Origin: Dehalogenimonas formicexedens | GTDB taxonomy: Bacteria; Chloroflexota; Dehalococcoidia; Dehalococcoidales; Dehalococcoidaceae | Length of the DNA stretch: 64,000 nt | Direction: 5' to 3' | Assembly: GCF_001953175.1 (NCBI RefSeq) | Contig: NZ_CP018258.1 | Span: forward strand, 772,210 to 836,209 | Shown: positions 15,057 through 25,116 of the stretch, one piece after another | Layout of the letters: each line of letters opens with the position of its first letter | Numbering within the stretch: position 1 is the stretch's first letter | Position numbers and translations under genes: made by a program | Notes under the pieces: model-generated | What the model was told of the DNA's origin: nothing | The model's database searches: none | Seen by the model: only the letters and a program-made list of their open reading frames with translations

Positions 15057-15119
15057 CCTTTCCTGACAAAATCCAGCTATCGTTATGTAAAGACCGTGCT
15101 CTGAGCACTCCCTAATTAC

Positions 15120-15131
15120 CATAACATATAT
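15120..15131. repeat. left copy of 12-bp direct repeat, candidate attL
   Basis: CATAACATATAT occurs here and again at 25097-25108, the two ends of the minus-strand gene block. It is exactly 12 bases, with different bases on both sides. It contains the TGTTAT word (on the minus strand) that also forms the repressor operator. Confidence 0.5.
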
Positions 15132-15141
15132 CTCCGGTATC

Positions 15142-15315
15142 CTATTTAGTACGATCGTTTGGCAGATAGGGAGCGCCGGCGGACGTTTTTAGAGTTGGAG
15201 TTAGCACGTCCGCCACATATTGAGCCGTTGATTTGCCGGCGGCGGCGGCCGCAACCTTTAGCGCTTTATGGATCGAGATCGGGATCCGGATCATTGTTGT
15301 CGTTTCGTCGCTCAT
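15142..15315 (-). CDS. ribbon-helix-helix repressor
   Basis: The protein has 57 residues from ATG 15315; an ATG at 15327 lies upstream of the predicted transcript start and is less likely. The sequence MIRIPISIHKALKVAAAAAGKSTAQYVADVL has the beta strand plus two-helix pattern of Arc/MetJ-type RHH proteins (IRI strand residues about 9-13, then helices). Such proteins bind DNA as dimers on tandem short repeats. It is the last gene of the element, separated from the late operon by a terminator and a palindrome array, and has its own promoter overlapped by a tandem TGTTATCA repeat. It is the obvious candidate for the maintenance (lysogeny) regulator. Confidence 0.8.
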   Translation of the reverse strand: MSDETTTMIRIPISIHKALKVAAAAAGKSTAQYVADVLTPTLKTSAGAPYLPNDRTK

Positions 15316-15318
15316 AAC

Positions 15319-15355
15319 TGTTATCATGTTATCACTATCTAAAAAGGCTTGTCAA
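15319..15355 (-). promoter_or_regulatory. promoter and tandem operator of the RHH gene
   Basis: On the minus strand TTGACA (15350-15355), an 18-base spacer and TAACAT (15326-15331) predict a start near 15319, only four bases before ATG 15315, so the message is nearly leaderless. On the plus strand TGTTATCA is repeated head to tail at 15319-15326 and 15327-15334, covering the -10 and start point, the usual operator layout for RHH repressors. Confidence 0.65.
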
Positions 15356-15383
15356 TACTTTTTTTAACCGGCTAATAACAAAT

Positions 15384-15467
15384 GGATCCGGCCGGATCGG
15401 TACCGGAGCCGTTGCCGGCAACGGGAGCGGTACCGATATGTTTAGATCTAAACTGATCGGTACCGAT
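15384..15467. repeat. array of palindromes with a 15-bp period
   Basis: Perfect palindromes have dyad axes exactly 15 bp apart: GGATCC (15384-15389), CGGTACCG (15398-15405), CCGTTGCCGGCAACGG (15409-15424), CGGTACCG (15428-15435), GTTTAGATCTAAAC (15440-15453) and ATCGGTACCGAT (15456-15467). The CGGTACCG core thus recurs every 30 bp, alternating with unrelated palindromes. A further palindrome GATCCGGCCGGATC (15385-15398) lies off phase. The 15356-15550 region has no convincing gene. It could be a partition, replication, recombination or operator site. Confidence 0.7.
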
Positions 15468-15550
15468 ATCGTCTCGGGTAAAATGCCAGGCGGGCGCCGG
15501 AGCGGGCCGCGTTGGGCATTGTAGCGCCTGGCTTTTTGGATCCGGACAAC

Positions 15551-15580
15551 AAAAAAGCCGCGCGGGATCTTGCGCGGCTT
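15551..15580 (-). terminator. terminator of the element's late operon
   Basis: The stem AAGCCGCGC / GCGCGGCTT (15555-15563, 15572-15580) with an 8-base loop ends in a T run on the minus strand (complement of the six A at 15551-15556). It lies 20 bases beyond the last late gene. Confidence 0.88.
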
Positions 15581-15599
15581 TTATCAATCGTATTTAGCT

Positions 15600-15926
15600 T
15601 TAGATCGTTATCAAGGTCTTTAGCGGCCGGCCAGGGTAGAGCGTGCCGGTAAGATCCGCCCGTAATTTGTCGTATAGATCCTCGCTCATTGGCGTTGGGA
15701 TCCGGCCGGCGCCCAGGACGGCGGCCTTTAGACATCGGTAACAATAGGCGCCCGTTTCAATACTGGCACACTCGCGGCGCGTGATCGGATTACGGGCCGG
15801 CGGGATCCTGGCCGTTACGATATAAACAACCTTGCCGGCGCCGGCGCCACATTTACAGCGTAGGCCGATGTTACCGGCCTCGCTCTCGATATACTCCGCG
15901 TTGTCGAGTCTAAAATCTTGTTTCAT
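15600..15926 (-). CDS. element protein, Cys-rich, unknown
   Basis: The protein has 108 residues. It carries CKCG (about residues 24-27) and a later CASIETGAYCYRC segment, which could bind zinc. I do not recognise the fold. It is the last gene of the late operon; its start overlaps the stop of the preceding membrane-protein gene by four bases, and a terminator follows. Its position after the spike gene suggests a late or lysis-related accessory role, but nothing in the sequence proves it. Confidence 0.65.
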   Translation of the reverse strand: MKQDFRLDNAEYIESEAGNIGLRCKCGAGAGKVVYIVTARIPPARNPITRRECASIETGAYCYRCLKAAVLGAGRIPTPMSEDLYDKLRADLTGTLYPGRPLKTLITI

Positions 15927-16213
15927 AGTCCGGAGATCTCCGATCTGTGATCTATTAGGTAGTCAATTAGATGGTCAATGAGCCAACAATCGGAAGCGAG
16001 CCAGGCCAGGGCATAGGGCCAGGCCGGCATAAAATGCCAGTAGGCCGCCCATTGGGCCAGGATAAACGCGGCCCAAAAAAAGGCGCCGTTCCGCCGGATA
16101 TTGCGAGCGAGTTGATAAGTAAAAGGCTCTTGCCGGCAGAGTAGATCATGCCAAAACCAGTAATAGGCGCGGCCGATCGCAACCTGGGCAATTAGCTTTA
16201 GCCTGGCGATCAT
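15923..16213 (-). CDS. element protein with aromatic-rich membrane segments
   Basis: The protein has 96 residues. After a basic N-terminus it has Trp/Tyr-rich hydrophobic stretches (AYYWFWHDLL near the start, FFWAAFILAQWAAYWHFMPAWPYALAWLA in the middle), so two or three membrane passes are likely. It starts inside the previous stop (ATGA) and ends inside the next start. Located after the spike gene in the late operon, it could be a holin-like or virion membrane protein; I cannot decide. Confidence 0.65.
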   Translation of the reverse strand: MIARLKLIAQVAIGRAYYWFWHDLLCRQEPFTYQLARNIRRNGAFFWAAFILAQWAAYWHFMPAWPYALAWLASDCWLIDHLIDYLIDHRSEISGL

Positions 16214-16482
16214 CGTAAACCGAGCCTATTAGCGATAAAATCAATCTTAGCCGCCACAGTTCCCAGGGCGGCAAACTCGGCCCGTATGTCGGTTACGACA
16301 ACGGCGGCCCGTGTAAACTTCGTTCCGTCCCAGGTTGCGCCGATCTCCGCGCCGGCGCTGTCAAACTCCGATAAAAGAGTAGTGCCGGCCGGAGCCGCCC
16401 AGGCTTTGGCCGGATCTATGGCGCATACGTTTAATACTTTGCCGGTTGCCGTTTCGATCAAGGCTCTATTTAGAATGACCAT
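16210..16482 (-). CDS. element protein, possible spike accessory
   Basis: The protein has 90 residues, beginning MVILNRALIETATGKVLNVCAID and including PAGTTLLSEFDSAGAEIGATWDG. The first half, a short beta hairpin followed by an expected-value-like segment, resembles small proteins that sit after tail-fibre or spike genes in many phages and act as capping or assembly factors; this is a resemblance only. It overlaps the spike gene by 13 bases and the next gene by four. The C-terminal 35 residues look helical. Confidence 0.6.
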   Translation of the reverse strand: MVILNRALIETATGKVLNVCAIDPAKAWAAPAGTTLLSEFDSAGAEIGATWDGTKFTRAAVVVTDIRAEFAALGTVAAKIDFIANRLGLR

Positions 16483-17738
16483 ACTCTAACCTCTCCGCGA
16501 GCGCCCTGGCCGCCGGCTCCGCTAATAGCAACTATACCCGCGCCACCACCACCACCGCCGCCGCCTGGCGCTCCGCCGGCGCCGCCTATATTCGTACCGC
16601 CGCCGCCGCCGGCGCCGCCCGTTCCACAGATACAGGCATTACCGGCCGTACCGGCTGTACCGGCGCCCGCGCCGCCCGCCGGCCCGCCGCCGTTTCCCCA
16701 ATCGCCTACGCCGCCGCCGGCTCCGCCGTTGGTGTAAGCCGGCCCGCCTGTCGCGGATCCGCCGGATCCGCCGCCGCCGGCGCCGAATACTGAACTTTGA
16801 CCATTTACGCCGGCTGCAGTTGTAGACGTTCCGCCCGCGCCGCCGCCAAACTCCGCGCCGTAGCCGGTTGCGCTTGCTATGCCACCCAGGCCGCCGGCCT
16901 GGGAGATCGCCGCCGTTTTTGTCGGTTGCGTAGTTCCTACATGGCCGCCGGCGCCGCCGACGGCTCCGCTATATCCGCCTAATCCGCCATAGCCGCCGTT
17001 AGCTCGGAGCCAGGCGCCAAAACTGGAATAGTTACCGGCCGTTCCTGGGGAGCCACTCGTCATATTTGAACTAGTTCCAGCGCCGCCGTTTGCGACTCCG
17101 CCAACTGTTACGGACTCCGTAGCGCCTAAAACGGAGATCGGGATAATCCGCCAGGCGCGAGCGCCGCCACCGCCACCACCGCCGCCGGAAGCGGGGTTCG
17201 CGTTACCACCACCGGCGCCACCGCCGCCGCCGCCGATAACTTCAACATAGGCAAGCGTTGTATTGCCTGGCTTATTCCATGTGCCGTTAGCCGTAAAGGA
17301 TTGATAATTCACTCCGGAGCTAACGATCGCCGCCCAGGCGCCGGCTTGAACTTGATATAGGTTGCCGTTGTCTGTGGCTTTGTAAAGGGATCCGGCCGGC
17401 AGATTGGCCGCCGCCGGTATTGCGGCAAAGGTTCCGGATCCGGAGTAGATCGTAATAGCAACCCAGGCGCCGCCCTGTTGCTGATATACAACGAGCCGAT
17501 CCGTGGCAAAATACACGGATCCGGCCGGCAGATCCGCCGCCGCCGGTATAGTGGCATAGGTTCCGGCGCTAGAGTAAATACTTATGGATTGCCAGGCGGA
17601 GCCGCTCCAACGATAGAGCGTTAGGCGATCCGTGGCATAACCAAAATCGCCGGCCGTTAGGCCGGCCGTGGGCAAATTGGCAAAGGTGTTATAGTACGCC
17701 TGGCGCACACTCGGAATGATTGTTACTTTATCCGTCAT
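16470..17738 (-). CDS. spike/adhesin with three repeats and glycine-rich tip
   Basis: The protein has 422 residues. Three repeats of about 43-46 residues occupy residues 21-138, each with a NLPAG / ATDR..LY / GSAW.AI pattern, a beta-structured stalk seen in phage fibres. Residues about 147-165 (SFTANGTWNKPGNTTLAYVEV) lead into a domain with many Gly-Gly and polyglycine runs to the end, finishing GEVRVWSF. This is the plan of glycine-rich tip domains of phage adhesins that bind host surface. It is the longest gene of the element and the best candidate for host recognition. It starts within the stop of the 54-residue TM protein (ATGA). The N-terminus has no signal peptide. Confidence 0.8.
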   Translation of the reverse strand: MTDKVTIIPSVRQAYYNTFANLPTAGLTAGDFGYATDRLTLYRWSGSAWQSISIYSSAGTYATIPAAADLPAGSVYFATDRLVVYQQQGGAWVAITIYSGSGTFAAIPAAANLPAGSLYKATDNGNLYQVQAGAWAAIVSSGVNYQSFTANGTWNKPGNTTLAYVEVIGGGGGGAGGGNANPASGGGGGGGGARAWRIIPISVLGATESVTVGGVANGGAGTSSNMTSGSPGTAGNYSSFGAWLRANGGYGGLGGYSGAVGGAGGHVGTTQPTKTAAISQAGGLGGIASATGYGAEFGGGAGGTSTTAAGVNGQSSVFGAGGGGSGGSATGGPAYTNGGAGGGVGDWGNGGGPAGGAGAGTAGTAGNACICGTGGAGGGGGTNIGGAGGAPGGGGGGGGAGIVAISGAGGQGARGEVRVWSF

Positions 17739-17899
17739 TTGTCCACTTCTCCAAAAACTTTACATTCTAGCCGGTTGAGCCGGCGATCGTCGTTATCAAC
17801 TTTTTGCGTTAGCTTGCCGTAAGTAAAGGCAAAGGCTAAAAGGTTCAAAAAGCCAACGATCGAGCCGCCGATGATCGCGGCTAATAGTTCTCCGCTCAA
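17735..17899 (-). CDS. 54-residue single-TM protein with TTG start
   Basis: TTG 17899 follows directly after the previous TAA, with GGGAG seven bases upstream. The frame encodes 54 residues: MSGELLAAIIGG, a hydrophobic helix to about residue 25, then a charged helix (TQKVDNDDRRLNRLECKV). Its TGA overlaps the ATG of the spike gene (ATGA), which strongly supports that it is translated. One TM helix plus a short coiled-coil-like tail is typical of holin/hemolysin-XhlA-like proteins or of a virion membrane anchor for the spike. It is easily missed because it is short and TTG-initiated. Confidence 0.75.
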   Translation of the reverse strand: MSGELLAAIIGGSIVGFLNLLAFAFTYGKLTQKVDNDDRRLNRLECKVFGEVDK

Positions 17900-18997
17900 T
17901 TAGAAACTCCCGCCGTGTGATTTTTTCCAATCGGCTACAACCTGTGCCGATTGCGTGGGCGTTAATGCGGGCGTACTAGCAATTTGACTAACATTTACGC
18001 CGCCAAAATTGAAATTGGTACCATTGGCGGCGTTATAATTGTCCATTTTTTCCTTGTTCGCTACTATCGCGTACGCCTCCGGCGTTGCCTGGGCCACGTT
18101 CCAACCCGCCGCGCGGCCGATCGTGCTTTGTAGCCAGTTGGCAGAACCATTATTCACGGCGGCGGCCGTAGCCGCGCCCTGGCGCCCGCTCCATGCCGTC
18201 ATAGCCTGGCCGGCGCTCGTATGCTCCACAAAGAGAGTGCCTAACCCGTAGCCGCCGGCAAAGGCTCCCGCGCCGGCTAATACTGTCGGTACTGTAAAGG
18301 CCGCCGGAGCGCCCAGGGCGCCGCCGGCGAGCGAGAAGCCGCGTCCCAGGTTAAGCAAACCGCGCTCGGTTGCCGTAGATAACGGACCTCGGGCCGCGCT
18401 AATTAGATCACTCGCAAAATTGCCGGTAGCTTTAATCACGGCGCCGCCTCCCGTTGCGATCGGCGGGATTAACTTAATCGCGCCGTATGTGCCGGCTATG
18501 CCTATGCCGGCGGAGATCACTCCGGAGCCGATATCTTTAGCGATCAATCCCCAATCTCGATTAACGATCGTCGTTCCGTCGTCGTTCTGTGTCGGGCCGT
18601 CGCCGCCAGGTAGTTTAATGTTAGTGACCTTATCCGTTAGGCCGGTGATTAGATCTAAAATGCCCTTGAAAGCATTATCGGTACCTTTGCCGGCGTCGGT
18701 TAGGGCCGTGTTTGTGGCGTCGGTTACGCCCTTTATGGCGTCGTCAACATAGCCGGTTAGCTGATCGAGTAAGCCATTAAGGCCGCCGCCCAGGCCGCCG
18801 GTTAAGCCGCCCAGGCCGCCGGATCCGGAGCCGCCGCCCAGGTTAAGGCCGCCGAGTAGTCCGGAGAGATCTATCATCGTCGAGCCGCCGCCCAGGCCGG
18901 AAAGCGCTTTGTCCGTTTCCTCTTTGGCCTTTGGAATAAGCATATAGGCGGCCAGGGCGCCGCCGCCGATCAATAGAATCGTCTCGCCGGTTTTCAT
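17900..18997 (-). CDS. large hydrophobic/Gly-rich late protein, probable virion membrane protein
   Basis: The protein has 365 residues. It begins MKTGETILLIGGGALAAYMLIP, an N-terminal TM anchor. A glycine/leucine-rich region (LSGLLGGLNLGGG and onwards, residues about 44-80) and an amphipathic helical part follow. Two more hydrophobic blocks come at about 155-185 (IGSGVISAGIGIAGTYGAIKLI) and 215-255 (rich in Ala/Gly/Val). The C-terminus is polar and ends KKSHGGSF. It has no recognisable enzyme motif. This looks like a structural or penetration protein of a virus with an internal membrane. It overlaps the 140-residue gene before it by four bases. Confidence 0.75.
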   Translation of the reverse strand: MKTGETILLIGGGALAAYMLIPKAKEETDKALSGLGGGSTMIDLSGLLGGLNLGGGSGSGGLGGLTGGLGGGLNGLLDQLTGYVDDAIKGVTDATNTALTDAGKGTDNAFKGILDLITGLTDKVTNIKLPGGDGPTQNDDGTTIVNRDWGLIAKDIGSGVISAGIGIAGTYGAIKLIPPIATGGGAVIKATGNFASDLISAARGPLSTATERGLLNLGRGFSLAGGALGAPAAFTVPTVLAGAGAFAGGYGLGTLFVEHTSAGQAMTAWSGRQGAATAAAVNNGSANWLQSTIGRAAGWNVAQATPEAYAIVANKEKMDNYNAANGTNFNFGGVNVSQIASTPALTPTQSAQVVADWKKSHGGSF

Positions 18998-19416
18998 AGC
19001 GCCCGCCTGGCCGCGTCGTTAGCGTCGTACGGCTTCTTTTTGAGCCGGATTACGATGTTACCGGCCGTTGTAGCAACGGCGCCATCATTCCTTACGTGGA
19101 CAGTTCCGATATACACTCCATCGTCAACGATCCGGCTAGTCCTGGCGGGGATCGGAAACGTCCGATCGGCGTAAGCGGGCCGATCATTGATCGAGACTGT
19201 AACGGGATTGGCCGCCTCGTTGTTTATAATTTCGATCGAGTCTAGCGGCTCGTATTTTCGGGCGCCTGGGAATTGTTTGTTAATATTGATCTCGACGATC
19301 GCCGCCGGATCTATGGCGCCTGGCGTGTACGTAAAATCGGGGGAGCCGCGCGTTTTAGCGCGGTACTCGCGCTCGGCTTGAGTCCTGGCGATCGAATTGC
19401 TAAAAAGCATTGTCAT
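18994..19416 (-). CDS. beta-rich late protein, candidate second capsid or cement protein
   Basis: The protein has 140 residues. After a short basic N-terminus, residues about 25-130 alternate hydrophobic and polar residues in many short strands (IVEININKQF, LDSIEIINNE, NPVTVSIND, GVYIGTVHVRND, GNIVIRLKKK), which suggests a single beta-sandwich. It is encoded right after the major-capsid candidate, separated by a strong hairpin, the position where two-capsid-protein viruses encode the second jelly-roll protein. No motif proves it; a minor capsid or cement protein is equally possible. Confidence 0.65.
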   Translation of the reverse strand: MTMLFSNSIARTQAEREYRAKTRGSPDFTYTPGAIDPAAIVEININKQFPGARKYEPLDSIEIINNEAANPVTVSINDRPAYADRTFPIPARTSRIVDDGVYIGTVHVRNDGAVATTAGNIVIRLKKKPYDANDAARRAL

Positions 19417-19443
19417 AATCTAAATTTTCCCTTAATTAAGGCT

Positions 19444-19472
19444 CCGGCGGGCCTGGGATCCAGGCCCGCCGG
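19444..19472 (-). promoter_or_regulatory. very stable RNA hairpin after the capsid candidate
   Basis: A perfect 13-bp GC-rich stem CCGGCGGGCCTGG / CCAGGCCCGCCGG has a 3-base loop. It lies 7 bases after the stop of the 192-residue gene and has no T run, so it is more likely an mRNA 3'-end protector or partial attenuator than a full terminator. Confidence 0.7.
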
Positions 19473-19478
19473 CAGTCC

Positions 19479-20057
19479 TTAGAGTGTGTAGTTGGTAACG
19501 GGGATCGAGAAGCCGGCGGAGTCCTCGGCGGCTGGCCGAGAAATGGCCGCGTACTTAATATGGATTTTTGAATCCTCGCCCACGATCGGTTTTTGAATCT
19601 GTTCGGGGAGAGCGATCATTTGGGCCATATCTGTCGGCTGTGCCGTGGTGATCGTGGTGTTTGTCGTGGTGTGCAGTCTGTTGGTGTCGTCCATTTCCTT
19701 GACGACTAAAACGTACTGCTCGGCCGCGTCCGCGATCCCAAGCCTAACGACGCCAGTTGCGAAATCCGTGGTCTTGTCGAGCAAAGCAAACCACATATAA
19801 CCTTGATTATACGGGGTTAAAGCGTTGCCGGATCCCCAACGGATACCGCGCTGTGCCAGGACGGTCTTTCGCCATATCTGGAAAAAGCCGGCGCCGGCGG
19901 CGCCCATAGCGCCATAGACTTCGGCGGCCGTATCGTACGGCAGATCGCCGTCGGTAATGACGACGTTTGCGCCGTAAGAGTTGTTAAAGCGGCTTTTCGG
20001 TGCCGCCTGGGCCTGGCCGCGTCCCATGACTGAACCTAGAAGGCTGTTTAAGTCCAT
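19479..20057 (-). CDS. beta-rich 192-residue protein, candidate major capsid protein
   Basis: The protein has 192 residues. The N-terminal about 40 residues are a basic/Ala-rich arm (MGRGQAQAAPKSRFNNSYG). The rest alternates strands and loops: NVVITDGDLPYD, MWFALLDKTTDFATGVVRLGI, AEQYVLVVKEMDDTNRLH and SKIHIKYAAIS. The size fits single-jelly-roll capsid proteins of tailless viruses such as those of the SH1/P23-77 group (about 170-290 residues). It is the second gene of the late operon, after a promoter, a terminator and the ATPase gene, and is followed by an exceptionally stable RNA hairpin as expected for an abundant product. No sequence motif identifies it; this is a position, size and composition argument. 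Confidence 0.65.
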   Translation of the reverse strand: MDLNSLLGSVMGRGQAQAAPKSRFNNSYGANVVITDGDLPYDTAAEVYGAMGAAGAGFFQIWRKTVLAQRGIRWGSGNALTPYNQGYMWFALLDKTTDFATGVVRLGIADAAEQYVLVVKEMDDTNRLHTTTNTTITTAQPTDMAQMIALPEQIQKPIVGEDSKIHIKYAAISRPAAEDSAGFSIPVTNYTL

Positions 20058-20058
20058 T

Positions 20059-20334
20059 TTAGATTACCTGTTCGGCGGGTGCGGAGCTTGCGGCCACGGC
20101 GGACGATCCGGCTATGCCGGAGAATTGGAAGAAACCGGCAGTTGTAGCGAGAGCTACACCGGCCTCGCCCTTAACAACGGATCCGGCCAGGACGGGCGCG
20201 ACGAGCGAGCCAATCAAGCCGTTACCGAATACGGAGCGGCCGAGCGAGTAAATCAACCCGCCCAGGGCGCCTACGGCATAGTTGCCAAAGGCTGATTTCA
20301 TGGTACGTACTGAAGGTACGCCAATTTTGTCCAA
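20059..20334 (-). CDS. small hydrophobic late protein with TTG start
   Basis: The protein has 91 residues from TTG 20334, with AGGAG ten bases upstream; an ATG at residue 12 lacks a ribosome site. Two hydrophobic blocks (AVGALGGLIYSLGRSVFG and LIGSLVAPVLAGSVV...GVALATTAGFFQF) indicate two membrane helices. It is the first gene of the late operon and ends one base before the capsid-candidate start region. Small hydrophobic proteins of this kind are abundant in the membranes of tailless viruses, so a virion membrane protein is the favoured guess. Confidence 0.65.
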   Translation of the reverse strand: MDKIGVPSVRTMKSAFGNYAVGALGGLIYSLGRSVFGNGLIGSLVAPVLAGSVVKGEAGVALATTAGFFQFSGIAGSSAVAASSAPAEQVI

Positions 20335-20452
20335 AGTGGTCTTGCTCCTATTTCGATTTACGCGGCGCTCCGTGGTACTCGACTAATGCCCGTCGTGATC
20401 GGCCGTATTGCCAATTAATGAGATTGGCCGCCCGATCCTTGCGCCTTTGTAT

Positions 20453-20488
20453 GATCCTAGCGTATTAGGATCCGGCCCAGGGAGTCAA
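20453..20488 (-). promoter_or_regulatory. late-operon promoter with palindromic operator
   Basis: On the minus strand TTGACT (20483-20488) is followed, after 18 bases, by a weak TACGCT -10. An inverted repeat GATCCTA / TAGGATC (20453-20459, 20466-20472) with a 6-base spacer covers the -10 zone. A weak -10 under a palindrome suggests a promoter that needs an activator or is repressed until induction. Confidence 0.55.
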
Positions 20489-20492
20489 TACT

Positions 20493-20542
20493 AAAAAAGG
20501 GCCGCCGGCTCTAATTTTCCGCGTTTACGGAGAGCCGGCGGC
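20493..20542 (-). terminator. terminator after the ATPase gene
   Basis: The 12-bp stem GCCGCCGGCTCT / AGAGCCGGCGGC (20501-20512, 20531-20542) is extended by CCG/CGG pairing in its loop and is followed on the minus strand by a T6 tract (complement of 20493-20498). It separates the early block from the late block. Confidence 0.9.
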
Positions 20543-20564
20543 AAACGTAGTTAAAAAATCTTTT

Positions 20565-21146
20565 TTAGTGGCTCGATTTGTCCGCCTTTGGTACCGGAGA
20601 CATAAGTTTATACTGGCGTGTTTGATCGCATAGGTAGAAGTAGAACGGCGGGAGCGTTTGAACCGCGTCTCCCAGGCCGGCGGAGAGATCGTTAAGGTAC
20701 TTTTGATCGTTAACTCCGGCCAGGCGGAACAAAAAGAGATAGTCCGCTTGCTCGGTTATATCTTGATGTAGCTTAACCGGCCGTTGAGTGATAAAAAGTA
20801 CCGATAGATCATATTGCTCATGTCGGCACCAGTCGTTAAGATCGCGGACGGCCAGGGGGAGCGGCGCCGGCTTTGGCGGGCAGAAACGATGTGACTCGTC
20901 AATAACGAGTAGCCGGTAGGCGCGGGAGCGCATGACGCCACGGATAACCTTTTCTAGCTCGGCCGGCGAGTTGCGATCGTTGGGCCGGTATATGTCGTAC
21001 TCGGCCTTTAGGTTGTACTCTCCCAGGCTGTCATAGATTAGCGCCTGGGCGCCGTACGTCCTCGAGATCGTATCGGCCAGGTTAGACTTTCCGGATCCTT
21101 TAAGGCCGGCGATAACTCCGGTTTTACCCTTTAGGTTGAGATCCAT
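20565..21146 (-). CDS. short FtsK/HerA-type ATPase, probable genome packaging ATPase
   Basis: The protein has 193 residues. Walker A is AGLKGSGKSNL (lysine at residue 20), Walker B LLVIDESHR (79-87), and the downstream motif VLFITQRP (116-123) precedes DITEQADYLFLFRL. This motif order and the TQRP signature are those of the HerA/FtsK superfamily. A size near 200 residues with no extra domain is typical of packaging ATPases of tailless dsDNA viruses (STIV B204, SH1/P23-77 type). It has no TM segment, unlike Zot-type ATPases of filamentous phages. The position just before the capsid-candidate operon matches the ATPase-then-capsid gene order of those viruses. It overlaps the previous gene by 23 bases and is closed by a terminator. 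Confidence 0.85.
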   Translation of the reverse strand: MDLNLKGKTGVIAGLKGSGKSNLADTISRTYGAQALIYDSLGEYNLKAEYDIYRPNDRNSPAELEKVIRGVMRSRAYRLLVIDESHRFCPPKPAPLPLAVRDLNDWCRHEQYDLSVLFITQRPVKLHQDITEQADYLFLFRLAGVNDQKYLNDLSAGLGDAVQTLPPFYFYLCDQTRQYKLMSPVPKADKSSH

Positions 21147-21591
21147 TTTTTACCTCGTTTACTAGCTCGCCTAGCGTTTTATTTTGGAGAAACGCGAGAA
21201 CCTGGCCGACAGTTAGGCCGGAGATCCCGCGCTTGTCTAGTTCCTGGGAGACTCGGCCCAGGATAGCCGGCCAGTCCAGGGCCGGTACGGCGGGCGGAGC
21301 GGGCGGCGGCGGCGGCGCCGGCAGTAGTGGGCCGGATCTCTCCGGCGGAGCCTGGGCGGGCGCCTGGGCGGGCGCTGGCGGCGCCAGGCGTCGGATAGCC
21401 GCGTCCGGCCCGATTAGCGGCATACCGGTTTTTTGGGCCAGGTTGTTAAGGTTAGTCATAAACTGATTTGCTCCGGTGATTAGGCTATTTAGGCCGCTCA
21501 TTAGATCCGAGCCGGCCGGAGCGCCGGCGCCGGCGGATCCGGCCGCCTGGCCGGCTATGTTGAGTATGTCGGCTTGTGTTTTTAGGCTCAT
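21124..21591 (-). CDS. element protein with proline-rich linker
   Basis: The protein has 155 residues: an Ala/Gly-rich N-terminal part (residues about 1-65, helical), a proline/alanine linker at about 70-102 (PAPAQAPAQAPPERSG then a run of prolines), and a compact C-terminal domain of about 50 residues (WPAILGRVSQELDKRGISGLTVGQVLAFLQ). It overlaps the ATPase start by 23 bases, so the two are probably translationally coupled and may interact. I do not recognise the family. Confidence 0.65.
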   Translation of the reverse strand: MSLKTQADILNIAGQAAGSAGAGAPAGSDLMSGLNSLITGANQFMTNLNNLAQKTGMPLIGPDAAIRRLAPPAPAQAPAQAPPERSGPLLPAPPPPPAPPAVPALDWPAILGRVSQELDKRGISGLTVGQVLAFLQNKTLGELVNEVKNGSQPKG

Positions 21592-21878
21592 TTAACGGCG
21601 CTCCAATCATGGACGGCTCCACACGTCGGACAAGTGGCGGCGCCCTTTTTGATATCCGATCCACAGTCTATGCAGTAATACGATTTGCCGGCCGGCGGTT
21701 TTGTGACGTTAAGCGGTTGGGCCGCCGGATCGGTACCGATAGCCGCCTGGGCGGGCGTGGCCGGCGGATCGGCCGGCGGATCAGCCGGCGGGCCGCCGTG
21801 GTACTTGCTAACGTGTCGATCTAACGATGCTTTGGAACTAAAGGGGCCTTTAGAACAATGCGGGCAAGGGTGAGTCAT
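21588..21878 (-). CDS. C2H2 zinc-finger plus zinc-ribbon protein
   Basis: The protein has 96 residues. An N-terminal classical C2H2 finger (CPHCSKGPFSSKASLDRHVSKYH, residues 5-27) is followed by a DPPADPPA-type linker and a C-terminal zinc ribbon (CIDCG...CPTCG). C2H2 fingers of this form are rare in bacteria and common in viruses of archaea and in mobile elements, where they act as small DNA-binding regulators. It overlaps its upstream neighbour by one base and its downstream neighbour by four. The sequence ATCGGTACCGAT, also in the palindrome array, lies within it at 21729-21740. Confidence 0.8.
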   Translation of the reverse strand: MTHPCPHCSKGPFSSKASLDRHVSKYHGGPPADPPADPPATPAQAAIGTDPAAQPLNVTKPPAGKSYYCIDCGSDIKKGAATCPTCGAVHDWSAVK

Positions 21879-22126
21879 TAGGTTACTACCTCCTCGTTAA
21901 GTTTGTGATCTCCACACCAATCGGTGTTAAAGACAACCGGATAACCGGACATGGTAGGGGCGTGGCGTCGGCAACGTCCCACGGCCTCGCGTTTTTCGAC
22001 AAACCACATACACGAAAGGCACCGCATTTTTACGCCGCGTCCGGCCCAGGGATCGGGGGCTTTTGGGATAGCCCGCCCGACGTTAGGAATTGCATTATTC
22101 GGTTTTTCATTGACAGTTTCACACAT
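21878..22126 (-). CDS. Cys/His-rich phage-type zinc protein
   Basis: The protein has 82 residues. The C-terminal half reads CLSCMWFVEK...CRRHAPTMSGYPVVFNTDWCGDHK. The C-x2-C, C-x3-H-x-P and DWCGD pattern is one I associate with small metal-binding proteins of phages and integrated elements; its function is not known. The stop and the next gene's start share a base. It belongs to the early block. Confidence 0.7.
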   Translation of the reverse strand: MCETVNEKPNNAIPNVGRAIPKAPDPWAGRGVKMRCLSCMWFVEKREAVGRCRRHAPTMSGYPVVFNTDWCGDHKLNEEVVT

Positions 22127-22158
22127 GTTAAAAAGGTTCCTTTTTTGTTATTCGGCCG

Positions 22159-22764
22159 TTAATCGTGGCCGGCTACGATTGGCGCGGGGCGATCCTTTTT
22201 ATCAAACAAAGACATTTCATAGTTTTGCCGTTTTAACCAGGTCAAACACCGGACCGGCTGCCAGGAATAGCCAGGTAAAAAGGCCCACACGCCGGCTCGG
22301 CTAAAACCTCGACAAGTTGGGCTACAATAGTCAAGGTATAAAACGTTATCGACGTGTTCGCGGAAAAAAAGCCGGATCCGATCACGGAATAACGCGTTAC
22401 CTGATAAAGCCCTCGCGTCGGCATACTCTTTTAGGTTGTCGTGGTCTTTGATCTGATATGGGGGATCGAGTAAACACCACTCGAAATGATCCGAGCAGCT
22501 CGATATATATTTTTCGACGCTCATTTTTAGAGTGGCTTCTTCGCATTCCAGGTCTACACGGATCCGGCCTATTGTCGAACGGCCCGAATAAAGGTGTAAA
22601 ACGTTATCCGAGCTGCCGATCAATTCCCTTATGATCCGTTCCGGACCGGACGCAAACGCCCCTCTATAATCGCCCGGGCGGTTTGGTGTTTTCTTGTCTC
22701 GGAATTGTTTTAGGTTGTTAACCGATCTCGGGGTAACACCTAACGGCAATACCTGGGTAATCAT
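22159..22764 (-). CDS. DNA methyltransferase-like protein (DPPY)
   Basis: The protein has 201 residues from ATG 22764, which overlaps the stop of the preceding gene (ATGA); a longer upstream frame exists but lacks that coupling. The catalytic motif DPPY is at residues 100-103, and a degenerate SAM-binding motif LYSGRSTIGRIRVDL lies at about 58-72, so the order is the beta-type/gamma-type of N6-adenine or N4-cytosine methyltransferases. The target domain is small. It may protect the element's DNA from host restriction; the element is unusually rich in short palindromes. An RNA methyltransferase or an inactive relative is possible. Confidence 0.65.
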   Translation of the reverse strand: MITQVLPLGVTPRSVNNLKQFRDKKTPNRPGDYRGAFASGPERIIRELIGSSDNVLHLYSGRSTIGRIRVDLECEEATLKMSVEKYISSCSDHFEWCLLDPPYQIKDHDNLKEYADARALSGNALFRDRIRLFFREHVDNVLYLDYCSPTCRGFSRAGVWAFLPGYSWQPVRCLTWLKRQNYEMSLFDKKDRPAPIVAGHD

Positions 22765-22943
22765 CGGCCGGCCGCCTTTGCGCCGGCGTAGATCGAACAA
22801 CGATAGATACAATAAGCCTCGCCCTGTTCGGTGATCGGCAATAGGCTATACTGGCACCGGCCCCAGGGCGGTATACCGCTTTTACAATGCCGGCAAAGTT
22901 CGGCTATGGCTTGTTTGATTCGTTCGGTACTAATTTCAGGCAT
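22761..22943 (-). CDS. small Cys-rich element protein
   Basis: The protein has 60 residues with CRHC, WGRCQY and CIYRCS, four or five cysteines arranged like a small zinc-binding domain. Function unknown. Its stop overlaps the methyltransferase start, which supports both starts. It begins one base after the stop of the previous gene. Confidence 0.65.
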   Translation of the reverse strand: MPEISTERIKQAIAELCRHCKSGIPPWGRCQYSLLPITEQGEAYCIYRCSIYAGAKAAGR

Positions 22944-22944
22944 A

Positions 22945-23172
22945 CTAAACCACTCCGGCGGCCAGTTTCGGGCCTTGTACGGGCATTGTAGGGGCCGCGT
23001 TTTTCTTAGCCGCGGCGTTTCCAGGGGCCATCAATCGCAACCGCAACGTATAGCACCGGCCGGCGTCGTCGATCCGGCCTACTTTTTCGGCCTGGGCCTG
23101 GGCGGCGGCCAGGGCGGCGGCGATCTGCTTAATTTCGCGTTCGTCTAACCTATATTGATTTGACGGGTTCAT
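22945..23172 (-). CDS. small helical element protein
   Basis: The protein has 75 residues from ATG 23172 with AAAGGAGATACT upstream; a longer in-frame start is inside the recombinase gene. A basic helical segment (RLDEREIKQIAAALAAAQAQAEKVG) and one cysteine in GRCYTLRLRL are visible. It overlaps the recombinase stop by 23 bases. No function can be assigned. Confidence 0.6.
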   Translation of the reverse strand: MNPSNQYRLDEREIKQIAAALAAAQAQAEKVGRIDDAGRCYTLRLRLMAPGNAAAKKNAAPTMPVQGPKLAAGVV

Positions 23173-23686
23173 AGTATCTCCTTTTTTTCCTTTTTTTCGT
23201 ATCGGTTGAACCTTTGGGGCGGCCCAGGGTTTTACCGCCGGCGGCCAGGCGGGCCAATCCGGCCTTTGTGCGCTCAGATCGGCGTTTACTCTCCCAATTA
23301 GCAACCCAGGCGATCAGGGCCGTAAAAACTTCGTCTAGGCCGCCAGGCATATCTAACCATTGTTCTTGATAGCTTAAAACACGAACGCCGACGGACCTAA
23401 AATCGGCAATCAGGGATAACGCCCGCGTTGGCCCCTCGCGTGTTAGGCGATCTAACGCCCATACTGCTACAATGTCCCAGGGCCGGCCGCGTCTACGGCT
23501 ATCGGCCCTTAAGCGGGCTAGTTCGGTTTGGTGGCCACTCTTGAAAGCACTCTCGCTCTCTTGATAAACGGCCGCGATCCCTAGCCCGCGTTCATTTAGC
23601 CAACGAGTCAAAGCTATTAATTGATTGTCTACTGTTTGATCGTCAGTTGATACGCGAACATAGAGCGCGGCCGCCGGTTGTTTCAT
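23150..23686 (-). CDS. small serine recombinase lacking an HTH domain
   Basis: The protein has 178 residues. The catalytic serine is S13 in YVRVSTDDQ, the DRLTR motif (79-83) carries the conserved arginines, and the E-helix region is ALIAWVANWESKRRSERTKAGLARLAAGG. After GRPKGS (156-160) resolvases normally have a helix-turn-helix of about 40 residues; here only 18 residues with the basic stretch KKRKKRRYY remain. It is the only recombinase of the element and therefore the likely integration/excision enzyme. It is encoded in the middle of the early block, not at an end as is usual for integrases. Confidence 0.9.
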   Translation of the reverse strand: MKQPAAALYVRVSTDDQTVDNQLIALTRWLNERGLGIAAVYQESESAFKSGHQTELARLRADSRRRGRPWDIVAVWALDRLTREGPTRALSLIADFRSVGVRVLSYQEQWLDMPGGLDEVFTALIAWVANWESKRRSERTKAGLARLAAGGKTLGRPKGSTDTKKRKKRRYYEPVKSI

Positions 23687-23849
23687 GCCTTTTACCTCCT
23701 AATTTAATACTCTCGTGGGCTACGTAACCGCAGAATATACAGACCTGGCAATTATCCAGATCCCGATCGAATACCAGGCGCCGGCCGCCCTGGGTACTGG
23801 CGCCACAATGCGGGCAAGTGTCAATAATGACGCGGCGCCATTGTTTCAC
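23643..23849 (-). CDS. zinc-ribbon protein
   Basis: The protein has 68 residues with CPHCG (about residues 12-16) and CIFCG (about 37-41), a classical zinc ribbon. It overlaps the preceding gene by four bases (ATGA) and the recombinase start by 44 bases. It is one of at least five small metal-binding proteins in this early block; a transcription or DNA-binding role is plausible. Confidence 0.65.
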   Translation of the reverse strand: MKQWRRVIIDTCPHCGASTQGGRRLVFDRDLDNCQVCIFCGYVAHESIKLGGKRHETTGGRALCSRIN

Positions 23850-24541
23850 TCGCCGGCCTCGTTAAATAGCTTTTCGTCAAAGCATGGGCCGTCAATGTCG
23901 TATGGATCGGCGGCCGGATCTATGCCGAGATCTCCGGCCAGGTTGTCGAGTTCGGCTAAGACTTCCTCACAGCGGGCGGCGAGCGTCCAGTTAGGGCCAC
24001 GGGCTATAGTCCGTTCGGCAATTTCGAGCGCGAGATCATAGGCCGCGCCTTTAACGGCAGTCCAGGAATGAAGGTGGAAGGCGTAGGCGAGTTTTTGAAG
24101 GGCCGAACACTCGTGTCCGTCCGCCTGGCCGCACGTTGACAAGATATTGTCCAGGTTGGCATTAAAGGCGGCACGATCCGCTTTAGCCATCGCCTGGCCT
24201 AAGATGATATCGGCCTTTTTCGAGTCTGATTTACCGCCCTGGGCGACAACCTGGGCCGGCGTCCGGCGGGGTTTTTTGGCGGGTTTGGCCGGCAGAACTA
24301 ACGCGCCTAGTTCGATATCGGCCCACATCATATCCGCTGTAAGTTCGGGGCTAAGGCGGGTTTTGTCCAGGTAGGCGTTAACAACTTCGTCCGCTTCGGA
24401 GAGAGCGATTTCGATTACCGGCTTTTTGGCGTCGCAACATTTAGTAGCCGCGTGGCGACCCATAGGGCCGGAGTAGGGGCGGTCGCATACCAGGCATTGG
24501 TATACGTCTTTAGAGAGTTTGCGGTAGTACTTAGACGACAC
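23846..24541 (-). CDS. element protein with N-terminal zinc finger
   Basis: The protein has 231 residues from GTG 24541 with GGAGG four bases upstream. An N-terminal CLVCDRPY...HAATKCCD segment looks like a C2HC finger (about residues 17-37). A charged linker with KPAKKPRRTPAQ follows, then a helical C-terminal domain (about 110-215) ending in an acidic tail. I do not recognise the family. As the first sizeable gene of the early block it could be the element's replication or transcription factor, but the sequence shows no polymerase, helicase or Rep motif. Confidence 0.65.
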   Translation of the reverse strand: MSSKYYRKLSKDVYQCLVCDRPYSGPMGRHAATKCCDAKKPVIEIALSEADEVVNAYLDKTRLSPELTADMMWADIELGALVLPAKPAKKPRRTPAQVVAQGGKSDSKKADIILGQAMAKADRAAFNANLDNILSTCGQADGHECSALQKLAYAFHLHSWTAVKGAAYDLALEIAERTIARGPNWTLAARCEEVLAELDNLAGDLGIDPAADPYDIDGPCFDEKLFNEAGE

Positions 24542-24651
24542 AGGCCCTCCGAACGGATAAAATAATACCGGCGCGATAGCCGGCGGCGTGTTTTTTACGC
24601 CGGCGTAGCCGCCGGCTAAGTTCTCCCAGGGATTTATCGGTACCGATCGGG

Positions 24652-24921
24652 TTATAATAGGCGTTTTTCGGTGGGTATTGAGAGATCGCCCAGGTCAACG
24701 GGGCGGGTAACACGGCTTCGCCCGCCGTATTCAAGCCGGTATCTAAGTGTGTGGAGATCATCGGCCCGTTGTTTATAGGGGCTATCGTATTCGTGATAGT
24801 GGGCGTGGTTGGCGTTTTCAGCTTCGGCGGCAAGTTCCGCTCTCCTGAGTAAGCCCAGAATGATCGCCAGTTCGTACGGGTTAAGCTTCGGGCGGGCGTC
24901 AACTTCAAAGTTGATTGACAT
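24652..24921 (-). CDS. small element protein, first gene of the early block
   Basis: The protein has 89 residues from ATG 24921, with AGAGGTAG five bases upstream; a start 9 codons earlier lacks a ribosome site. The sequence MSINFEVDARPKLNPYELAIILGLL, then an acidic/His-rich helix (AENANHAHYHEYDS) is ordinary globular composition without a motif I know. It is followed by 110 bases without a gene that contain ATCGGTACCGAT (24636-24647). A second frame on the same strand (24531-25058) fully overlaps it and is discussed in the findings. Confidence 0.6.
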   Translation of the reverse strand: MSINFEVDARPKLNPYELAIILGLLRRAELAAEAENANHAHYHEYDSPYKQRADDLHTLRYRLEYGGRSRVTRPVDLGDLSIPTEKRLL

Positions 24922-25058
24922 TTTTCTACCTCTTTTTTCGGTTCGCATATGCGAGTTACGGTTAACTTAGAGTGTTCTCTTTTTAGAACGGGCGGCAAAG
25001 CTAAGCATTTAGCTTCAAGCGGTACCGATCCTTTTATGATTACTTTATGTAAAAGCAT

Positions 25059-25116
25059 TTCGCACCTATTATGTTAAGTGTTATATCTCTATATAACATA
25101 ACATATATAGTGCGAA
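25059..25116. promoter_or_regulatory. right-end imperfect inverted repeat, early promoter/operator zone
   Basis: TTCGCAC (25059-25065) and GTGCGAA (25110-25116) are the outer arms of an imperfect inverted repeat that continues inward with AT-rich TATGTTA-type words to a centre near 25088. It contains -10-like TATAAC/TATATA words for minus-strand transcription and the right copy of the 12-bp direct repeat. It is the natural place for the early promoter and its control. Confidence 0.5.
25097..25108. repeat. right copy of 12-bp direct repeat, candidate attR
   Basis: CATAACATATAT, identical to 15120-15131. Recombination between the copies would release a 9,977-bp circle. Confidence 0.5.

Follow-up and report, generated by a model that had tools for sequence, protein, structure and literature searches.

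The repressors MetJ, Arc and CopG are RHH proteins that act at tandem operators, and the met boxes bound by MetJ follow one another with 8 bp between centres. Spacings of 8-12 bp, rather than 15 or 30 bp, are usual for the sites of RHH proteins. In the intergenic region of the filamentous phage f1, hairpins of differing sequence are clustered.

The nearest known parallel in life style to the element described here is NO16 ('Asemoviridae'), a 10.6-kb non-tailed temperate vibriophage that has a packaging ATPase and integrates at dif by way of the host XerCD (PMC9966536). The small DNA-binding proteins of NO16 have been proposed as lysis/lysogeny repressors (PMC9966536). No mention of palindromes was found in the text of that paper (PMC9966536).

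Here we describe an array of palindromes in a provirus-like element of Dehalogenimonas formicexedens. The window is the whole stretch of DNA that was analysed (64,000 nucleotides). It belongs to a 2.09 Mb genome in a single contig, which together with its relatives falls in a genus of eight genomes. The arrangement is true and unusual; its most probable role is that of operators in the provirus control region, with a symmetric filling that is unexplained. The features are collected in Table 1.

A provirus-like element at the chromosomal dif site

Between dapL and hflX, the sister genome G200 (L127) has a short gap with an empty dif site (GGTTCGCACTATATATATTATGGTAAT), which is an Xer dif by form. 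This site or a close relative of it occurs once in most other members of the genus and is found in many members of the order. The same gap measures about 10 kb in the window and carries the core CATAACATATAT at both ends (15120-15131 and 25098-25109). The element is thus integrated at dif of the chromosome.

On the right side of the element (25048-25115) dif is followed by an inverted dif-like site whose hairpin is strong (z -6.1). This is the geometry seen in CTXphi attachment, except that the XerC arm on the left side (15116-15140) is not paired with the inverted site. In another genome (G124, L133:1040-1515), dif and dapL are separated by about 500 bp of additional sequence, which matches residues 19-67 of the protein encoded at 23846-24541 in the window at 37% and is perhaps what is left of a related element inserted at this dif. 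The element contains more GATC than expected (128 against 77) and its flanks do not, and this GATC-rich element also carries a DPPY methyltransferase-like gene (22159-22785).

The product of the RHH gene matches Pfam HicB (4.1e-5, above the cut-off) and an Arc-like PHROG (0.0026), and its sequence comparison with solved RHH structures gave no match. The small packaging ATPase matches PHROG 2666 (phrog_2666, 3.1e-16), B204 (PDB 4kfr, 0.0013) and HerA (2e-4) and, judged from these matches, is of the type found in tailless double-stranded-DNA viruses. In the small serine recombinase no DNA-binding domain was recognised, and its C-terminal DNA-binding domain seems to have been replaced by a short basic tail (GRPKGSTDTKKRKKRR). 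Relatives with 50-55% identity in two genomes of the order have similar C-terminal ends. The structure model of a putative capsid candidate (19479-20057) reached a pLDDT of 35, too poor for a jelly-roll call; it was one of two protein models whose quality was too low for use. By its sequence the element looks like a non-tailed provirus without a close relative in the collections searched.

Viral contigs, phage and plasmid records, 393 genomes of the class and pattern scans yielded no relative with the array. With the packaging ATPase, the 393 genomes yielded one weak partial match (a 542-aa frame with unrelated chromosomal neighbours) and no array, and the viral contigs, phages and plasmids no array-bearing relative. 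Searches with the putative capsid proteins, the protein of gene 23846-24541 and the RHH protein likewise gave no relative with the array. The two genomes with related serine recombinases share no other genes with the element and have no array. The methyltransferase-like gene is common only to different prophage-like regions of a related genus, again with no array. Genome G098 contains three near-identical prophage-like regions (L138, L140 and L141) with a resolvase and a methyltransferase-like gene related to those of the window. A blastn comparison of the intergenic region with phages and plasmids gave nothing useful, and an Rfam search gave no match.

Table 1. Features of the element and of its palindrome array (coordinates are those of the window)
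Feature	Position	Strand	Sequence	Centre	Remarks
Provirus-like element	15121..25109 (about)				all genes on - strand; integrated at chromosomal dif
RHH (HicB/Arc-like) gene	15142..15327	-			61 aa or shorter, start uncertain; adjoins array
RHH gene promoter-like site	15326..15355	-	TTGACA-18-TAACAT		preceded by an A-tract
Off-phase palindrome beside array	15385..15398		GATCCGGCCGGATC	15391.5	14 bp, perfect; contains most of GGATCC
R1	15398..15405		CGGTACCG	15401.5	8 bp
P1	15409..15424		CCGTTGCCGGCAACGG	15416.5	16 bp, perfect; singleton in element
R2	15428..15435		CGGTACCG	15431.5	8 bp
P2	15440..15453		GTTTAGATCTAAAC	15446.5	14 bp, perfect; singleton in element
R3	15456..15467		ATCGGTACCGAT	15461.5	12 bp
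Late-operon intrinsic terminator	15553..15582	-			11-bp stem, T tail
Small genome-packaging ATPase (STIV B204-like)	20565..21146	-			
R copy	21729..21740		ATCGGTACCGAT		inside zinc-ribbon gene 21588-21878
Small serine recombinase	23150..23686	-			Pfam Resolvase 6.2e-27
Isolated R copy	24636..24647		ATCGGTACCGAT		intergenic; ~100 bp upstream of start of gene 23846-24541
Isolated R copy	25020..25027		CGGTACCG (agCGGTACCGAT)		intergenic; ~100 bp upstream of likely start (24921) of first gene

Palindromes at 15-bp steps

The array stretch (15384-15467) was re-read and every perfect palindrome in it was catalogued. Five of them, of 8, 16, 8, 14 and 12 bp, are centred exactly 15 bp apart, the first at 15401.5 and the last at 15461.5. 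The initial annotation had counted six; the sixth, GGATCC (15386.5), is weak. It is only 6 bp long, in an element with about 25 palindromes of 6 bp per kb, and it overlaps the stronger 14-bp GATCCGGCCGGATC, which lies 5 bp away and off phase and had been passed over. An 8-bp palindrome centred at 15467.5 (CGATATCG) is off phase as well. The odd members do have a common sequence at exact 30-bp steps, as had been described: CGGTACCG at the first two centres and the core of ATCGGTACCGAT at the third. The alternating members P1 and P2 are indeed unrelated palindromes of 16 and 14 bp. The description of the dyads as non-conserved in sequence holds for these two and fails for R, which is a recurrent site of the element. 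Successive centres had been said to face opposite sides of the DNA, which is true only approximately, as 15 bp makes 1.43 turns for a helix of 10.5 bp per turn. The reading that suits the array best is that of three R copies (ATCGGTACCGAT) placed 30 bp apart, with two symmetric spacers.

This phasing is beyond chance. When periods of 8 to 60 were allowed, one of 15,203 order-3 Markov copies of the element contained five palindromes of 8 bp or longer in a chain; in a smaller run of the same test none of 150 did. In 1.34 Mb of other DNA, all chains of at least four had at most two different cores and were simple tandem repeats. The regularity is partly geometric because a 14- or 16-bp palindrome nearly fills a 22-bp spacer and has few placements within it; by geometry both would be centred with a probability of about 1/63. 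The probability that a 22-mer contains a palindrome of at least 14 bp is about 0.26% (0.0026) for each spacer. The phasing is real, and the surprise is that two long perfect palindromes occupy both spacers.

The element had been described as palindrome-rich. Perfect palindromes of 4-10 bp are not unusually frequent after composition correction, and those of at least 12 bp number 16 against 9.9 +/- 3.5 expected. Enrichment of palindromes throughout the element was rejected as the cause on these composition-corrected counts. Local alignment of the array with coding segments of the element did not rise above background, and an origin by copying from such a segment was also rejected.

It is unlikely that chance and mutation account for most of the array and that nothing in it but one R site has a function today. 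Perfect hairpins of arbitrary sequence can be created by template switching (PMC8794818), the centring is partly geometric, and part of the pattern was at first picked by eye. However, the single success among 15,203 simulations, the enrichment of R and its intergenic clustering all argue against this explanation.

Every other stretch of the element differs from P1 and from P2 by at least two mismatches. Each of the two lies in the middle of a 30-bp imperfect dyad (12/15 and 13/15 pairs), and a single 38-nt hairpin forms from R1-P1-R2 and another from R2-P2-R3. The symmetry of the spacers is incomplete since mismatches (GAG/GAG and AT/TG) remain beside R. Elsewhere, paired R sites were found in 85 stretches of viral contigs, and the longest midpoint palindrome in the 80 examined was 10 bp. 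Triple R sites in genome contigs gave 39 matches; almost all of these were repetitive, and no palindrome at a midpoint exceeded 10 bp. A 166-kb viral contig (L100:3501-4841) contains a dense cluster of CGGTACCG repeats, with a pair of 30-bp dyads 31 bp apart; this cluster looks like a repetitive tract.

These folds bear on the idea that the array is a cis-acting site of replication or packaging, in which adjacent hairpins or cruciforms are formed and palindromy matters rather than sequence. The unrelated spacer palindromes fit this idea, as does the place of the array in a main noncoding stretch between a terminator and a promoter. Both strands also fold far better than shuffles (z -5.5 and -5.3), and the dif-like attachment region is another strong hairpin, as in CTXphi with its integrating ssDNA. 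Yet any perfect palindrome lowers the folding energy, single R copies stand elsewhere without hairpin partners, and the packaging ATPase is of a tailless double-stranded-DNA-virus type. The search for a replication initiator gave no Rep-type match in Pfam (20 genes scanned) or PHROGs (10 scanned). On balance we regard a role in replication or packaging as somewhat unlikely.

The same two dyads could be read as a site of the serine recombinase, consisting of two abutting 30-bp imperfect palindromes with tips ACCG...CGGT and serving in circular-dimer resolution. Resolvase sites are 28-30 bp in size, so that these tandem dyads are of a matching size, and the element encodes such a recombinase. 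The dyads are rare in the element, and 1.42 Mb held one further close pair. This suggestion of the initial annotation is weakened by the isolated copies of R, which stand as perfect 12-bp palindromes where no 30-bp unit exists. In addition, 7.7 kb separate the array from the recombinase gene (about 1.7 kb on the circle), no such dyad pair occurs at the loci of related recombinases (G312 and G393), and insertion at dif means that Xer explains integration. We consider a recombination site quite unlikely, and it is just as doubtful that CGGTACCG is the mere junction of two 30-bp units.

The spacer palindromes may be sites of a second regulator, signals by their symmetry, or relics of fold-back template switching. 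Very unlikely in our estimation is a new type of cis-element, in which R sites would alternate with symmetry-only sites at a 15-bp pitch and a viral protein would read hairpins or cruciforms.

R sites and the control region

The genome contains 76 copies of CGGTACCG, six of which are within the 10 kb element of this 2,093 kb chromosome, where the density outside it predicts about 0.34. Of the four genomic copies of the 12-bp form ATCGGTACCGAT, three are in the element. Outside the array two copies of ATCGGTACCGAT were seen against 0.002-0.03 expected from the composition of the element, and three of CGGTACCG against 0.4-1.3. The 12-mer bears most of the weight in this enrichment since the 8-mer alone makes a weaker case against composition. 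The copies on the host chromosome that were checked against genes all lie inside ordinary coding genes. The one host copy of ATCGGTACCGAT was rejected as a second functional site, as it sits in a tyrA-like coding gene.

Five of the six R copies in the element are intergenic, in an element whose intergenic share is 10.5%; the three array copies are not mutually independent, and the fair count is three of four places. All five fall within an 808-bp arc of the 9,989-bp circle, which spans the gene 24652-24948, att, the RHH gene and the array. R therefore recurs in several intergenic stretches of the element, as an operator of a control region would, and of all readings such an operator suits its distribution best. 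No promoter above chance level emerged from scans near the first operon, so that it is distance that links R to this operon.

As the initial annotation had it, the array lies between the repressor gene and the late operon terminator, more exactly between the terminator stem (15582-15553) and the promoter of the RHH gene. Because of this place between a terminator and a good promoter, the array probably acts as DNA rather than as mRNA. Counted from the point where RHH transcription is expected to begin, R1, R2 and R3 lie about 80, 110 and 140 bp upstream, too far for simple occlusion, which makes activation, silencing or bridging likelier. A direct repeat (TGATAACATGATAACA) covers the -10 of the RHH promoter (15310-15335), and is a candidate operator of the RHH protein separate from the array.

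We tentatively favour the array as an operator or upstream activating array for a dimeric regulator encoded by the element, a reading to which we give slightly less than even weight. It is favoured because R is enriched, mostly intergenic and clustered around att, the RHH gene and the first operon. The RHH protein is the first candidate since its RHH/Arc/HicB-type gene adjoins the array and its promoter is just downstream. From the sites, their statistics, their clustering and their neighbours we infer that R (consensus ATCGGTACCGAT) would be the target of a dimeric DNA-binding protein of the element, most simply the RHH protein. The suggestion of the initial annotation that RHH protein binds the array may thus hold. 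With three copies in the array and single ones upstream of the first two genes, the bound protein would act as an upstream activator or silencer; alternatively, it might bridge both ends of the circular form. The regulator on R would thereby set the balance between lysis and lysogeny. P1 and P2 would be sites of a second regulator or a by-product. In the latter case a pair of R sites, being an inverted repeat, could promote fold-back template switching during replication and leave in the spacer a perfect palindrome, arbitrary in sequence and with its centre exactly midway.

Several observations count against this operator reading. R does not overlap the core promoter, and its copies are 30 bp apart (15 bp with the spacer dyads), whereas RHH sites are usually 8-12 bp apart. 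The direct repeat at the -10 could be the true RHH operator. Binding to R would by itself leave the spacer palindromes unexplained, one R is intragenic, and no relative with the array was found.

An RHH protein might also coat every slot of the array as a centromere-like partition site or nucleoprotein array. RHH proteins are the centromere-binding proteins of several plasmids, and the array is regularly phased. However, the slots differ in sequence, the spacing is unlike that of known RHH centromeres, and an integrated element needs no partition. Pfam and PHROG scans recognised no ParA/ParM/TubZ-type partition motor among the element proteins. With neither a ParA-/ParM-type gene nor a replication initiator recognised in the element, the earlier suggestion of a partition or replication site loses ground, and a partition role in particular appears highly improbable.

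Significance and comparison with known systems

If R is an operator, it marks the control hub of a non-tailed virus integrated at dif and names a protein-DNA pair that is open to testing. To our knowledge, non-tailed viruses of this sort are little known in the anaerobic bacterial group of the host. Should the spacers have arisen by fold-back copying from one palindromic operator to the next, the array would let one see how sets of binding sites breed new palindromes. A signal of a new kind would be at hand if it is the symmetry that is read.

The element resembles NO16 in its size of about 10 kb, its integration at dif and its tailless-type packaging ATPase. It differs in its host, a member of the Dehalococcoidia, and no match to an element protein was found in the phage collection. 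With CTXphi, VGJphi and TLCphi (IMEX, PMC4246890) the element shares insertion at dif and an inverted dif-like site at the right end, as in attP1/attP2 of CTXphi; in contrast, its ATPase is of the small B204 type and the XerC arm of its left end is unpaired with the inverted site.

The array itself is comparable to two systems. Like the f1 intergenic region, it brings together neighbouring palindromes that differ in sequence, within a main noncoding stretch that follows a terminator. Unlike f1, the element has no recognised rolling-circle initiator, R recurs singly, and the virus is likely to have double-stranded DNA. The operators of MetJ, Arc and CopG are similar in that short, perfect palindromic boxes stand in tandem next to an RHH gene, but the boxes of the array are 30 bp apart, with unrelated palindromes between them.
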